Shown here: piece after piece, positions 1,314-23,920 of the stretch
How positions within the stretch are numbered: position 1 is the first letter of the stretch
Layout of the letters: every line of letters starts with the position of its first letter
Assembly (NCBI RefSeq): GCF_002742335.1
Contig: NZ_MDGR01000007.1
Coordinates: 4,096,501-4,160,500, forward strand
Origin: Reichenbachiella sp. 5M10
Lineage (GTDB): Bacteria; Bacteroidota; Bacteroidia; Cytophagales; Cyclobacteriaceae
Direction: 5' to 3'
DNA: 64,000 bases
Notes under the pieces: generated by a model
The model's database searches: none
What the model saw: only the letters and a program-made list of their open reading frames with translations
What the model was told of the DNA's origin: nothing
Made by a program: the position numbers and the translations under genes

Positions 1314-1321
1314 TATCTTTG
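1314..1321 (+). promoter_or_regulatory. Candidate -7 box upstream of the cysteine-rich leader
   Basis: TATCTTTG matches the Bacteroidetes -7 consensus TAnnTTTG and lies about 50 nt before the leader ATG at 1371. No TTG stands at the expected 17-23 nt upstream, so this is only half of the usual signal. The rest of 1205-1370 is AT-rich and shows no gene. Confidence 0.35.
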
Positions 1322-1370: not shown

Positions 1371-1466
1371 ATGACTATTAACACATTATATACCTCAAGA
1401 ATGATGGGCTGTTGTCAGCCGTGTTGTTGCTGTGCGATCACGAGCACCAGTGGAGATATATTTTAA
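1371..1466 (+). CDS. Cysteine-rich leader peptide (31 aa) upstream of sulfite reductase
   Basis: A short ORF from ATG 1371 to TAA 1464-1466 encodes 31 residues with six Cys in eight codons: RMMGCCQPCCCCAITS (the Cys codons lie in 1410-1433). An AAGGA sequence 9 nt before the ATG is a better ribosome-binding site than most genes here have; ATGs at 1401 and 1404 are alternative starts. It is followed by an intrinsic-terminator hairpin (1514-1550) and then the siroheme sulfite/nitrite reductase at 1573. Polycysteine short ORFs that act as cysteine-responsive attenuators are known upstream of sulfur genes in mycobacteria; the same role here is inferred from architecture. A small metal- or redox-binding peptide is the alternative. 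Confidence 0.7.
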   Translation: MTINTLYTSRMMGCCQPCCCCAITSTSGDIF

Positions 1467-1529
1467 TGCGTTATTTGGATACAGCAGTTAATCAATAACA
1501 ATAAAGAAACATTAAAAAGCCTCTCCCAC
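1450..1529 (+). promoter_or_regulatory. Candidate antiterminator pairing for the cysteine attenuator
   Basis: GTGGAGA at 1450-1456, inside the last codons of the leader ORF, can pair with TCTCCCAC at 1522-1529, the 5' arm of the terminator, with one bulged C. A ribosome stalled on the Cys codons (1410-1433) would leave 1450-1456 free and favour this pairing. A ribosome reaching the stop at 1466 would cover it and let the terminator form. The base complementarity is seen in the sequence; the switching logic is inferred. Confidence 0.45.
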
Positions 1530-1550
1530 ACTATAGGAGAGGCTTTTTTT
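1514..1550 (+). terminator. Intrinsic terminator / attenuator upstream of sulfite reductase
   Basis: A perfect 13-bp inverted repeat (AAAAAGCCTCTCC at 1514-1526 with its complement at 1536-1548), a 9-nt loop and a run of seven T (1544-1550). It stands between the leader ORF and the reductase start at 1573, so any transcript from the leader promoter must read through it to reach the reductase. Confidence 0.85.
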
Positions 1551-3693: not shown

Positions 3694-3716
3694 GTCACAG
3701 ACACAAAACGAAACAC

Positions 3717-3763
3717 ACCCTTCTGTATCCCTCACTGAGGACGCTATGGAAGGGTATTTTTTT
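3717..3763 (+). terminator. Terminator-like hairpin after sulfite reductase
   Basis: ACCCTTC (3717-3723) pairs with GAAGGGT (3749-3755); an inner CCTCACTGAGG element sits in the loop, and a T-rich tract follows (3757-3763). It could end or reduce transcription before cobA. Confidence 0.55.
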
Positions 3764-3845
3764 ATTTCCTATTCAGGAAAGATTGAATTAGTGTATTGAA
3801 TAACCAAGTGCGTTTCCAATCCGCTAATTAGCATAAATTTACCGT

Positions 3846-4604
3846 ATGGCACGCAAAGCAAAACTCACACTCGTAGGTGCTGGTCCCGGAGATCCGGATT
3901 TGATCACGCTCAAAGGCATCAAAGCACTCGAAGATGCAGATGTCGTACTCTACGACGCGCTGGCCAATGAGAGTCTACTCGACTATTGTAAAGAGGGAGT
4001 CATCAAGACTTTCGTCGGTAAGCGGGCAGGCTTCCACGTGTATCAGCAAGACAAAATCAACGAAACAATCGTCAGTGAGGCCTTGGCTCATGGGCATGTC
4101 GTTCGTCTCAAAGGGGGAGACCCTTACGTCTTTGGTAGAGGACACGAAGAACTAGAGTATGCCGAAGCGAATGGTGTAGAGGTAGAGATCGTACCAGGTG
4201 TGACGAGTGCCATCTCGGTGCCTGCCCTCAACCAGATTCCCCTCACCCGTCGTGGGCTCAACGAGAGTTTTTGGGTGATGACAGCCGTCAAAAGCGATGG
4301 TAGTCTGGCTGCAGACATAGAGCTGGCCACACAATCCACCGCCACCGTCGTGATCCTGATGGGGATGAAACGACTCGAAGAAATCATGGCTGTGTTCGTC
4401 AAGCATGGGAAACAAGATACGCCGGCCGCAGTGATCCAAAACGGTTCAAGAGAAGACCAACAGATCGTTATCGGTACCGTAGAGAACTTGGTGCAGCTGG
4501 TGTTGGAAAAAGACCTCCAATCACCCGCCATCATCGTCGTAGGACAAACCGTCCAACTCGGTCAGGCCAAACTCAACAAGGAAATCAACAAGCTCAATTT
4601 ATAA
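3846..4604 (+). CDS. cobA: Uroporphyrinogen-III C-methyltransferase (SUMT)
   Basis: A 252-residue single-domain SUMT of normal length. Visible signatures are the N-terminal SAM-binding loop VGAGPGDPDLITLKG, the VRLKGGDPYVFGRG motif near residue 85, and the VPGVTSAI motif near residue 118. It methylates uroporphyrinogen III twice with SAM to give precorrin-2, the branch point to siroheme and cobalamin. The gene lies 150 nt downstream of the siroheme reductase and 21 nt upstream of the dehydrogenase/chelatase that takes the next step. No other cobalamin genes are in the window, so siroheme supply is the likely job. HemC, which feeds this pathway, is encoded at 28512. Confidence 0.95.
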   Translation: MARKAKLTLVGAGPGDPDLITLKGIKALEDADVVLYDALANESLLDYCKEGVIKTFVGKRAGFHVYQQDKINETIVSEALAHGHVVRLKGGDPYVFGRGHEELEYAEANGVEVEIVPGVTSAISVPALNQIPLTRRGLNESFWVMTAVKSDGSLAADIELATQSTATVVILMGMKRLEEIMAVFVKHGKQDTPAAVIQNGSREDQQIVIGTVENLVQLVLEKDLQSPAIIVVGQTVQLGQAKLNKEINKLNL

Positions 4605-4625: not shown

Positions 4626-5207
4626 ATGACTGACACAGGCAACAATCTTTTTCCAGTATTTTTCAAACTCGAAGACATGAACCTACTCATCGTAGGCGGA
4701 GGCTATGTGGGTCGTGAAAAGCTCGGTGCAGTACTCAAAAACAGCCCCAAAGCGACCATCAGGATAATCGCCATTGAGATGAGTGCCGAAATCAAAGCAA
4801 TGGCGAAGGGCTACCCAAATATTTCGTTGGTCGAAAAGCCATTCGATCCTTCTGACCTAGCGGGAATCAACTTAGCTATCGTCGGTATAGATGATCCAGA
4901 GACCAGTGCGAGCATCCAGGCTATATGTCGCCAACAAAACATCCTCGTCAATGTAGCAGACAAACCTGCGTTGTGTGACTTCTATCTTGGTTCAGTTGTC
5001 AAGAAAGGAGATCTCAAAATCGCCATCTCCACCAATGGAAAGTCACCAACAGTCGCCAAACGTATGCGTGAAATGCTCACCGAGGTGATCCCCGAGACCA
5101 TAGATGATGTCCTCGACCAAATGGCCAAAGTCCGAGACAAACTCAAAGGTGACTTTGACTACAAAATCAAAAAATTGGATGAAATTACAAAGGATTGGAA
5201 GGCATAA
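4626..5207 (+). CDS. Precorrin-2 dehydrogenase / sirohydrochlorin ferrochelatase (Met8/CysG N-terminal type)
   Basis: This 193-residue protein matches the stand-alone Met8/CysG-N family: Rossmann glycine motif LIVGGGYVGREKL near residue 20, then VVKKGDLKIAISTNGKSPTVAKRMRE (split here as DLKIAISTNGKSP and AKRMREML) typical of the dimerisation/catalytic part. It oxidises precorrin-2 to sirohydrochlorin with NAD and in Met8 homologues inserts Fe2+ to give siroheme. Together with cobA it makes the cofactor of the upstream reductase. Whether this protein does the chelation step or only the oxidation cannot be told from sequence. Confidence 0.9.
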   Translation: MTDTGNNLFPVFFKLEDMNLLIVGGGYVGREKLGAVLKNSPKATIRIIAIEMSAEIKAMAKGYPNISLVEKPFDPSDLAGINLAIVGIDDPETSASIQAICRQQNILVNVADKPALCDFYLGSVVKKGDLKIAISTNGKSPTVAKRMREMLTEVIPETIDDVLDQMAKVRDKLKGDFDYKIKKLDEITKDWKA

Positions 5208-6994: not shown

Positions 6995-7000
6995 GGCTAG

Positions 7001-7042
7001 AAGCAAAAAACGAGGATCAATGCTGATCCTCGTTTTTTGCTT
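7001..7042 (-). terminator. Perfect 19-bp inverted repeat, terminator of DUF4834 gene
   Basis: The arms at 7001-7019 and 7024-7042 are perfect complements around a 4-nt loop. A and T runs inside the arms make it a terminator in both directions. It lies 9 nt after the DUF4834 stop and 7 nt before the ATG of the next gene on the same strand. Confidence 0.85.
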
Positions 7043-7050
7043 TATGGTTC

Positions 7051-22378: not shown

Positions 22379-23920
22379 ATGTCCAAAAAATCTAACGCAC
22401 AGCCTCTCTTCCAACTTATCAAGTCACTGACCAAGTCCGAAAAGCGAAGTTTTAAGCTTTACGTGAGTCGCATCAATGATGAAAGTGAGGTCAAGTTCAT
22501 TACGCTCTTTGATATCTTAGACAAATTAGATGAATATGATGAAAAAATCATCATCAAGAAGATGTCAAATATTAGCAAAGCACAATTGGCCAACCTAAAA
22601 TCCCACCTATACAAGCAGGTCCTGCTTGTACTACGGATTAGTCATCTCAAATCTGACGTGGATATTCAGCTCCGAGAAAACCTTGATTATGTGCGCCTTT
22701 TGTACAAAAAAGGGCTCTATGACGAGAGCATGAAGCTTCTCAATAAAATCAAACTGACCGCCAACAACTACAAAAAAAATATTTTTAAACTCGCACTTCT
22801 CAACTACGAAAAGAACATAGAAAATCAGCAGATGCTGACTCTAGACACCACTACGACACTCAAACTCGACCGTGAGACCAAAAGTATCCTCAACAAAATC
22901 AATGTGGCTCAGTCGTTTTTTTCAGTGGCTCTCCGCATGAAGGCACAATTCCTCAAAGGCGGCATGGCACGCAGCGAGGACGAGTTAGAAAAAATCAACA
23001 AACTATTCTATTCTAGCTTGCCTGAGTATGACAAAGCTCACCTGTCCTTCAGTGAACAGTACAACATGTGTCGCGCCTACTATTGGTACTCTTACTTGAT
23101 CCAAGATTTCGAATCATGTGTCAAGTATACGGAGATTTGGGTCAGTATTTTCAAAGAAAATAACCTGACACACCTCCGCCACGCGGAGTTCCTAAGAGGA
23201 CTAAATCGCCTCTTGCAATCACTCTTTCGTATCAACGACCGAGACCGGTTCAACATGTACTATGAAGAGTTACTAGAGTTTGAAAAGCTCTACATGAAAG
23301 CCATCGATTCGAACAGCAAGCAGCTACTTCTTCGGTGTCTTACGATACAGACTCTCAACAAATGTTTTATGGACGGGGAGTTCAAGAAACATGAGCACAA
23401 CCTCGGCAGATATCTCCTCAAGATCGAAGACAGCCTAGAATACATCGATAGAAACAACCAACTGGTAATCTTCTACAAATCCGCCATTCTCTATTTCGGA
23501 CTACAGCAGTACGACAAATGCATCGACTATCTCGATCGTATCCTCGCCGATCACGATGAGCATTTGAGAGAAGATCTCAAGAGTTTCTCATACATCATCT
23601 ACGTGATCGCTCTTTACGAAATGAGAGATTTCAAGAAGTTGGAAAAGATTCGTAAGCGTGCATTTGTCTACCTCAGACAACGCAACATCCTCGGGCAATT
23701 CCACAACATCATTCTACAGTTTATCAAGCGTTCTGAGAGCATCATGCCTTTGGATCTCAAAGGAGAGCTGAAAAACCTTCGTCTCAGCCTAGAACCGCTG
23801 CAAGATGACAAATTTGAATCGAAACCCCTGTTGTATTTTGACATCATGAGTTGGTTGGAAAGCAAGATTTCAAGCCGTCCCTTCTTGGAGGTAGTCAAAG
23901 AAGCTGCGGACAACAAGTAA
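22379..23920 (+). CDS. Large helical protein of unknown function (TPR-like)
   Basis: A 513-residue protein without signal peptide or membrane segment, so probably cytoplasmic. It starts with a conserved-looking element (LFQLIKSLTKSEKRSFKLYV) and continues as almost pure alpha helix with TPR-like helical pairs (YVRLLYKKGLYDESMKLLNK, YFGLQQYDKCIDYLDRIL, YVIALYEMRDFKKLEKIR). I recognise the type as a Bacteroidetes-restricted hypothetical, not a named family. It is divergent from gltB, with 231 nt between the two starts, and is followed by its own terminator. A scaffold or protein-binding role is only a guess from the fold. Confidence 0.75.
   Translation: MSKKSNAQPLFQLIKSLTKSEKRSFKLYVSRINDESEVKFITLFDILDKLDEYDEKIIIKKMSNISKAQLANLKSHLYKQVLLVLRISHLKSDVDIQLRENLDYVRLLYKKGLYDESMKLLNKIKLTANNYKKNIFKLALLNYEKNIENQQMLTLDTTTTLKLDRETKSILNKINVAQSFFSVALRMKAQFLKGGMARSEDELEKINKLFYSSLPEYDKAHLSFSEQYNMCRAYYWYSYLIQDFESCVKYTEIWVSIFKENNLTHLRHAEFLRGLNRLLQSLFRINDRDRFNMYYEELLEFEKLYMKAIDSNSKQLLLRCLTIQTLNKCFMDGEFKKHEHNLGRYLLKIEDSLEYIDRNNQLVIFYKSAILYFGLQQYDKCIDYLDRILADHDEHLREDLKSFSYIIYVIALYEMRDFKKLEKIRKRAFVYLRQRNILGQFHNIILQFIKRSESIMPLDLKGELKNLRLSLEPLQDDKFESKPLLYFDIMSWLESKISSRPFLEVVKEAADNK

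Follow-up and report, generated by a model that had tools for sequence, protein, structure and literature searches.

A predicted cysteine-codon transcription attenuator ahead of a siroheme-type sulfite/nitrite reductase gene in Reichenbachiella and other Bacteroidia

Leader-peptide attenuators and cysteine leaders described to date

Classical transcription attenuators, exemplified by those of the Escherichia coli trp and his operons, comprise a leader ORF rich in codons for the amino acid of the pathway, an antiterminator near the end of that ORF and a terminator before the structural gene. The same three parts occur in the same order before a reductase gene of Reichenbachiella sp. 5M10, within a 64-kb stretch of DNA (hereafter the window). 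The locus differs from the trp/his type in its amino acid, cysteine (often accompanied by Met codons), in its gene, a sulfite reductase, and in its host, a member of the Bacteroidota.

Before the cys operons of actinobacteria, short ORFs with runs of Cys codons have been described (PMC1262725), and the leader considered here resembles these in having such codon runs ahead of a sulfur gene. The Mycobacterium smegmatis leader (Canestrari 2020) is reported to be cysteine-responsive, as cited in passages of PMC9031893, PMC9094748 and PMC13236596. However, the mycobacterial leaders are leaderless and are described, in the relevant passages, as acting on translation, whereas here a terminator is present and a predicted promoter box lies upstream of the ORF. 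The likeness to mycobacterial leaders drawn in the preliminary description of the locus goes only so far, since the latter have, according to the corresponding section of PMC1262725, no conserved terminator hairpin; the system in the window is therefore closer to classical enterobacterial attenuation.

The uORFC-8-2 motif, located before cysS in Rhodobacterales, combines Cys codons in an upstream ORF with an intrinsic terminator, as does the present locus, and ribosome-mediated attenuation has been proposed for it in the section of PMC8632094 devoted to this motif. That motif, however, has two conserved Cys codons and belongs to a cysteinyl-tRNA synthetase gene in an alphaproteobacterial order, whereas the gene here encodes a sulfite/nitrite reductase. 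Leader-peptide attenuation has been proposed for amino-acid operons of Flavobacterium psychrophilum (PMC9723704), a member of the same phylum with the same general mechanism, although the relevant section of that paper names neither cysteine nor sulfite reductase. Leaders of B. thetaiotaomicron contain sORFs, as stated in the pertinent part of PMC7366714. A cysteine leader-peptide attenuator, whether before a sulfite reductase gene or in the Bacteroidota, was not found among the papers listed in a search of the open-access literature, subscription papers lying mostly outside that search, and little was found in the same literature on the control of cysteine synthesis in this phylum. As far as the search extends, the attenuator, which appears to be real and recurrent and is of a known general kind, is new for its gene and its phylum.

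The reductase locus of Reichenbachiella sp. 5M10

The preliminary description had placed three parts ahead of the reductase ATG: a 31-codon ORF containing six Cys codons, a one-bulge complement of 7 bp and an intrinsic terminator. All three are present (Table 1), at positions that agree with those first given to within a base or two.

Table 1. Features of the reductase locus and its surroundings, numbered by position in the window
Feature	Position	Strand	Remarks
Predicted promoter -7 box	1314-1321	+	TATCTTTG; TAnnTTTG type
Leader ORF	1371-1466	+	31 codons, MTINTLYTSRMMGCCQPCCCCAITSTSGDIF; stop codon 1464-1466; six Cys codons
Putative regulatory Cys codons	1410-1415 and 1422-1433	+	All six inside the leader ORF
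Antiterminator segment (predicted)	1450-1456	+	Partner 1522-1529, in the 5' arm and loop of the terminator
Inner antiterminator helix (predicted)	1461-1468 with 1510-1517	+	Similar inner helix in separate folds of 8/8 genus members
Intrinsic terminator hairpin	1514-1548	+	13-bp stem, 1514-1526 with 1536-1548; loop 1527-1535; T tract to 1550
Siroheme-type sulfite/nitrite reductase, 706 aa	1573-3693	+	Scores below cut-off with the NirA, CysI and Sir family models
Terminator-like hairpin and U run	3717-3755	+	Fold of 3694-3790: -23.2 kcal/mol, z -2.54
Uroporphyrinogen-III C-methyltransferase (siroheme synthesis)	3846-4604	+	TIGR01469, 277.8 bits (cut-off 185)
Siroheme synthase N-terminal-domain protein	4626-5207	+	TIGR01470, 124.9 bits (cut-off 62.3)

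The six Cys codons of the leader ORF fall within 8 codons; in dinucleotide-preserving shuffles of 1205-1572, with any of the three frames scored, a density of five was reached by 0/3000 and a density of four by 18/3000. Met codons lie close to the Cys codons (RMMGCC). Three close relatives share, without change, the reading frame and the six Cys codons (four genomes with that of the window), and a codon-position test over these four genomes gave no excess of third-position changes within the ORF. Together this is what would be expected of a leader that acts through its codons and not through its peptide; taken by itself, the absence of a third-position excess counts against the attenuator reading. 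The leader peptide matched no NCBIfam family, while the best matches of the Rfam 15 covariance models (riboswitch, T-box and others) in 1150-1700 lay below the gathering score, and 20 reductase loci gave no Rfam match either. The whole leader folds more stably than its own shuffles (z -2.31), and local folding was seen.

The terminator stem ends 24 nt before the reductase ATG (1573), and 11-13 of its 13 pairs are kept in each of eight genus members. When the leader was paired with the 5' half of the terminator, the complement of 1450-1456 with 1522-1529 was the best duplex found (-8.4 kcal/mol). By position, its upstream strand is free with a ribosome stalled at the Cys codons and covered with a ribosome at the stop codon. 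Taken alone, the window antiterminator appears modest: it is not clearly above shuffles (z -0.9), the terminator is bound better by 10/16 other leaders than by its own, and support comes from the relatives. In predicted folds the antiterminator holds until the polymerase is at about 1538-1541. It is also predicted to form without any ribosome, so that untranslated RNA might read through.

About 50 nt ahead of the leader ORF lies the predicted promoter box, which fits the TAnnTTTG pattern given as the -7 element of the Bacteroidetes primary sigma factor in the promoter section of PMC7366714; the transcript would thus start near 1327, ahead of the leader ORF. The pattern TAT.TTTGAACCC is common to 8/8 genus members in a MAFFT alignment, and TAnnTTTG was found upstream of 41/59 of the units described below, compared with 3/59 in antisense and 12% in mononucleotide shuffles. 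A conserved box at this position would argue against a transcript whose start invariably lies downstream of 1550.

We consider that this arrangement is very probably a ribosome-mediated transcription attenuator, with the supply of charged tRNA-Cys as its signal. RNA polymerase would start at the promoter and a ribosome would follow on the leader ORF. With cysteine plentiful, the ribosome would reach the stop codon at 1464-1466 and cover 1450-1456, the terminator at 1514-1548 would form and transcription would end ahead of the reductase. With charged tRNA-Cys scarce, the ribosome would stall on the Cys codons at 1410-1433 and leave 1450-1456 free to pair with 1522-1529, aided by the pairing of 1461-1468 with 1510-1517; the 5' arm of the terminator would then be held, and the polymerase would read on into the reductase gene. 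The reductase would probably be made only when cysteine is short, and perhaps also when methionine is short. The parts, their order and spacing, their conservation and the match of antiterminator to terminator within a genome are taken from the sequences, and from them we infer the start site, the translation of the ORF, the stalling, the readthrough and the signal itself. The reading already offered in the preliminary description, in which stalling at Cys codons leads to antitermination, gains support from the recurrence of the layout across the class.

The reductase is 100% identical to that of R. agariperforans (L033) and 78% identical to that of R. versicolor (L034). It could also reduce nitrite, and the neighbouring siroheme genes do not decide between sulfite and nitrite. 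Because the reductase gene is followed by a terminator-like hairpin, it appears doubtful that the control extends to these siroheme genes, a possibility raised in the preliminary description. Elsewhere on the + strand of the window, at 7000-7043, a strong 20-pair hairpin was likewise scored terminator-like.

Recurrence in the genus and across the class

Conservation of the layout among relatives, on which the preliminary description had made its proposal depend, was found at two levels. Within the genus, the genome of the window was compared with seven others (seven among 59 genomes searched), and a Cys-containing leader ORF, a terminator and an antiterminator of similar shape, each sequence being folded separately, were present in 8/8 members; across the class, the layout recurs. 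The genus folds used the RNA up to the terminator loop with a ribosome placed at the Cys codons. The outer helix joins the stretch after the Cys codons to the 5' arm of the terminator (GUGGAGA, GUGGGGA, CGGGAGA or GGAGA with fitting partners), the inner helix is of the UUUAAUG/CAUUAAA kind, and fold energies range from -11.6 to -19.6 kcal/mol. The outer pairs of the window are broken or gapped in 6/8 rows of the MAFFT alignment of the genus, so what the genus members have in common is the shape of the fold, not the alignment columns that form it. Antiterminator-stage folds had z <= -1.5 in 6/8 members, the window (-0.9) and G004 (-0.6) being the others.

For the class, 208 reductase genes of Bacteroidia, Cytophagales included, were analysed over the 600 nt preceding each. 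These upstreams represent part of the reductase matches listed by three overlapping searches (59, 390 and 395 genomes), together with three loci, and include near relatives, L033 and L034 having been left out as duplicates of G007 and G006; genus and family labels (g117, f11) are numbers assigned by the search tool. ORFs with at least four Cys in 10 codons were found in 54/208 upstreams in sense and 7/208 in antisense, and ORFs with at least five in 34/208 and 1/208, respectively. A unit was defined as an ORF of 7-90 codons with a Cys pair (CC), followed 15-120 nt beyond the last such pair by an intrinsic terminator. By this rule, 60/208 reductase upstreams were positive, giving 70 units in total, compared with 0/208 in antisense and 0/624 shuffles. 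The same rule detected no unit in 50/50 upstreams of PF01507 (cysD/cysH-like) genes of relatives, an imperfect control in that some of the genes are preceded by others in their operon; the few weak Cys-containing ORFs seen before cysD/cysH-like genes were judged unconvincing. With the reductase upstreams positive and the controls not, the unit goes, in these samples, with the reductase gene and is no general feature of the genomes.

On both strands of the 64-kb window, the rule matched the reductase unit and four others, each with a single CC; these other matches were read as chance, and one of them, at 23805, lies inside a 513-aa ORF. Four Cys codons in a row occur at 49 sites in the genome of the window, compared with 27 for the reversed pattern. 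The sites other than the leader mostly overlap an ORF of at least 90 codons on either strand, by a loose filter, and were discarded. Three sites are free of such overlap, namely L090, which has no ORF, L091 and L097. L091 lies between murI-like and nuoH-like ORFs (by eye), lacks the leader layout and was rejected as a leader.

A set of 62 Cys leaders was assembled from the ORFs with at least four Cys in 10 codons, minus four judged otherwise (L035, L306, L145 and L180) and plus 12 identified by eye. A terminator follows 48/62 of them (31/35 genera), compared with 0.3% of shuffled regions. The unit rule misses some leaders, including most of those of the 62 that have no detected terminator and the second units of L284, L295 and L175. 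Leaders of genus g117 have up to ten Cys in a row and are mostly without a detected terminator, and several g117 loci, a group that also includes L055, carry a second Cys-rich ORF downstream. Seven poly-Cys leaders of this genus in which no terminator was detected (L049, L052, L053, L109, L110, L114 and L120) would suit control by Rho or at the start of translation, as proposed for mycobacteria, with the hairpin merely ending transcription from upstream. Such control is nevertheless very unlikely to account for the present locus, given the terminator after 48/62 leaders, the pairing of leader with terminator and the promoter box upstream of the leader.

The unit is absent, by the rule, from 148/208 upstreams. 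In family f11 it was found in 0/43 upstreams (e.g. L132, L140 and L171). At some f11 loci the ORF just upstream of the reductase resembles, by eye, the end of a CysN-like protein, so that control may sit elsewhere there. Among the 146 upstreams outside the 62-leader set, 40 have another ORF ending no more than 120 nt upstream of the reductase, which suggests that the reductase may be inside an operon in these cases, and 48 have a terminator-like site no more than 250 nt upstream, some following weaker CC leaders.

The proposed switch and its variants in relatives

The mutual exclusivity of antiterminator and terminator, statistically weak in the window alone, was found over the relatives in both the pairing and the spacing of the parts. 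One leader from each of 31 genera was paired, as a duplex, with the 5' half of its own terminator or with those of other genomes. The mean for own pairs was -14.93 kcal/mol, compared with -11.20 (sd 0.50) for swapped genomes (z -7.4), and 0/20000 permutations reached the real value. The own leader was the single best partner in 6/31 and among the best three in 13/31; a GCC-rich 5' arm of similar kind is common to many terminators. Between the last CC codon and the start of the antiterminator lie 5-20 nt in 94% of the 70 units, compared with 38% in shuffled sequences, and the median spacing is 13.5 nt (shuffled 20). In 58/70 units this spacing is 9 nt or more, enough to leave the antiterminator clear of the edge assumed for a ribosome whose A site holds the last CC codon.

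A small functional Cys-rich protein, binding metal or thiol and followed by a terminator through coincidence, would accommodate the Cys-containing short ORF of 8/8 genus members. This explanation is extremely improbable, as the Cys residues have no obvious common spacing (by eye) and the peptide no NCBIfam match, the distance from the Cys codons to the antiterminator varies little, the antiterminator is matched to the terminator of its own genome, and in some genomes two such ORFs occur, both followed by a separate terminator.

Under codon-reading attenuation, the position of the ribosome should decide which structure forms. A ribosome whose A site is at the stop codon would lie over the antiterminator in 48/70 units (the window included), beyond it in 18 and short of it in 4; for the latter 22/70 units, the moment at which the ribosome moves on or is released would have to be important. 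In folds with the ribosome masked in, from which the RNA up to the ribosome was removed and in which the terminator 3' arm was not yet made, the 5' arm was held by upstream pairing at 0.72 with the ribosome at the Cys codons and 0.11 at the stop codon (70 units), an effect that is overstated for units where the ribosome has passed the antiterminator, because all upstream RNA is removed. The antiterminator-stage RNA had a mean z of -2.37 (38/70 below -2), compared with -0.43 (9/70) for upstream control stretches. Once the 3' arm is made, the upstream hold falls to 0.12 and 0.02, respectively, and is above 0.5 in only 6/70 units. The completed terminator thus wins in most units, and readthrough would have to be kinetic, decided during transcription.

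Met codons are a frequent companion of the Cys codons. Within four codons of Cys pairs, Met accounts for 123/552 non-Cys residues (22%), compared with 69/1458 (5%) elsewhere in the same ORFs, and 62/70 units have at least one Met near the Cys pairs; with one leader per genus the counts are 57/301 and 24/747 (Fisher p 6e-16). Mixed leaders include MCMCMCMCCCM (L313), MMCMMMCCCM (L305) and MMCCMMCCC (L301). The pattern suggests a reading of both sulfur amino acids, and internal starts may explain part of it.

Two units in series precede the reductase in 10/60 upstreams (L259, L265, L255, L266, L277, L279, L313, L017, L048 and L057), and L284, L295 and L175 appear to be tandem too (by eye). In L259, MKMMNTACCCCC and a terminator are followed by KMKCCCCKSTERWE and a second terminator. 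Tandem attenuators are known from the Salmonella mgtCBR leader, where mgtM and mgtP sense different signals, ATP and proline (PMC3641672, in the section on this leader). As there, two short ORFs in one leader would each be part of an attenuator; the tandem units differ from mgtM/mgtP, as described in that section, in that both have Cys codons, mostly with Met, and each has its own intrinsic terminator. We tentatively propose, as a serious possibility short of a probable one, that attenuators across the Bacteroidia read Cys and Met in one leader, sometimes with two in series, the reductase being released only with stalls at both. As far as searched, the mixed Cys/Met leaders and serial units of the relatives appear to be new.

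A family of CACWFWCC-type peptides (core C-W-[FH]-W-C-C) occurs in L011, L012, L013, L024, L039, L040, L041 and L042 with synonymous codon changes, and is a possible candidate arrest sequence. Outside the order, CWFWCC was found at 9 sites in 8/395 class genomes, and the reversed pattern at 3; these sites were read as chance, none being leader-like before a sulfur gene. Maintenance of this family at the amino-acid level is what an arrest peptide would predict, i.e. a nascent chain that itself stalls the ribosome, possibly in response to cysteine or a thiol, with the terminator switch following. For the locus as a whole an arrest peptide is nonetheless unlikely: most other leaders share, by eye, little beyond their Cys (and Met) content, Cys runs vary from two adjacent to ten in a row, and the peptide of the window is of the plain type.

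If true, serial attenuators that read the same kind of codon would be uncommon, as would a leader of mixed Cys/Met content. The relatives constitute a natural series, the number of Cys codons ranging from two to ten, Met being present or absent and units being single or double, on which the rules of codon sensing would be measurable. A class-wide attenuator would give the control of cysteine synthesis in the Bacteroidota a defined and easily tested element.
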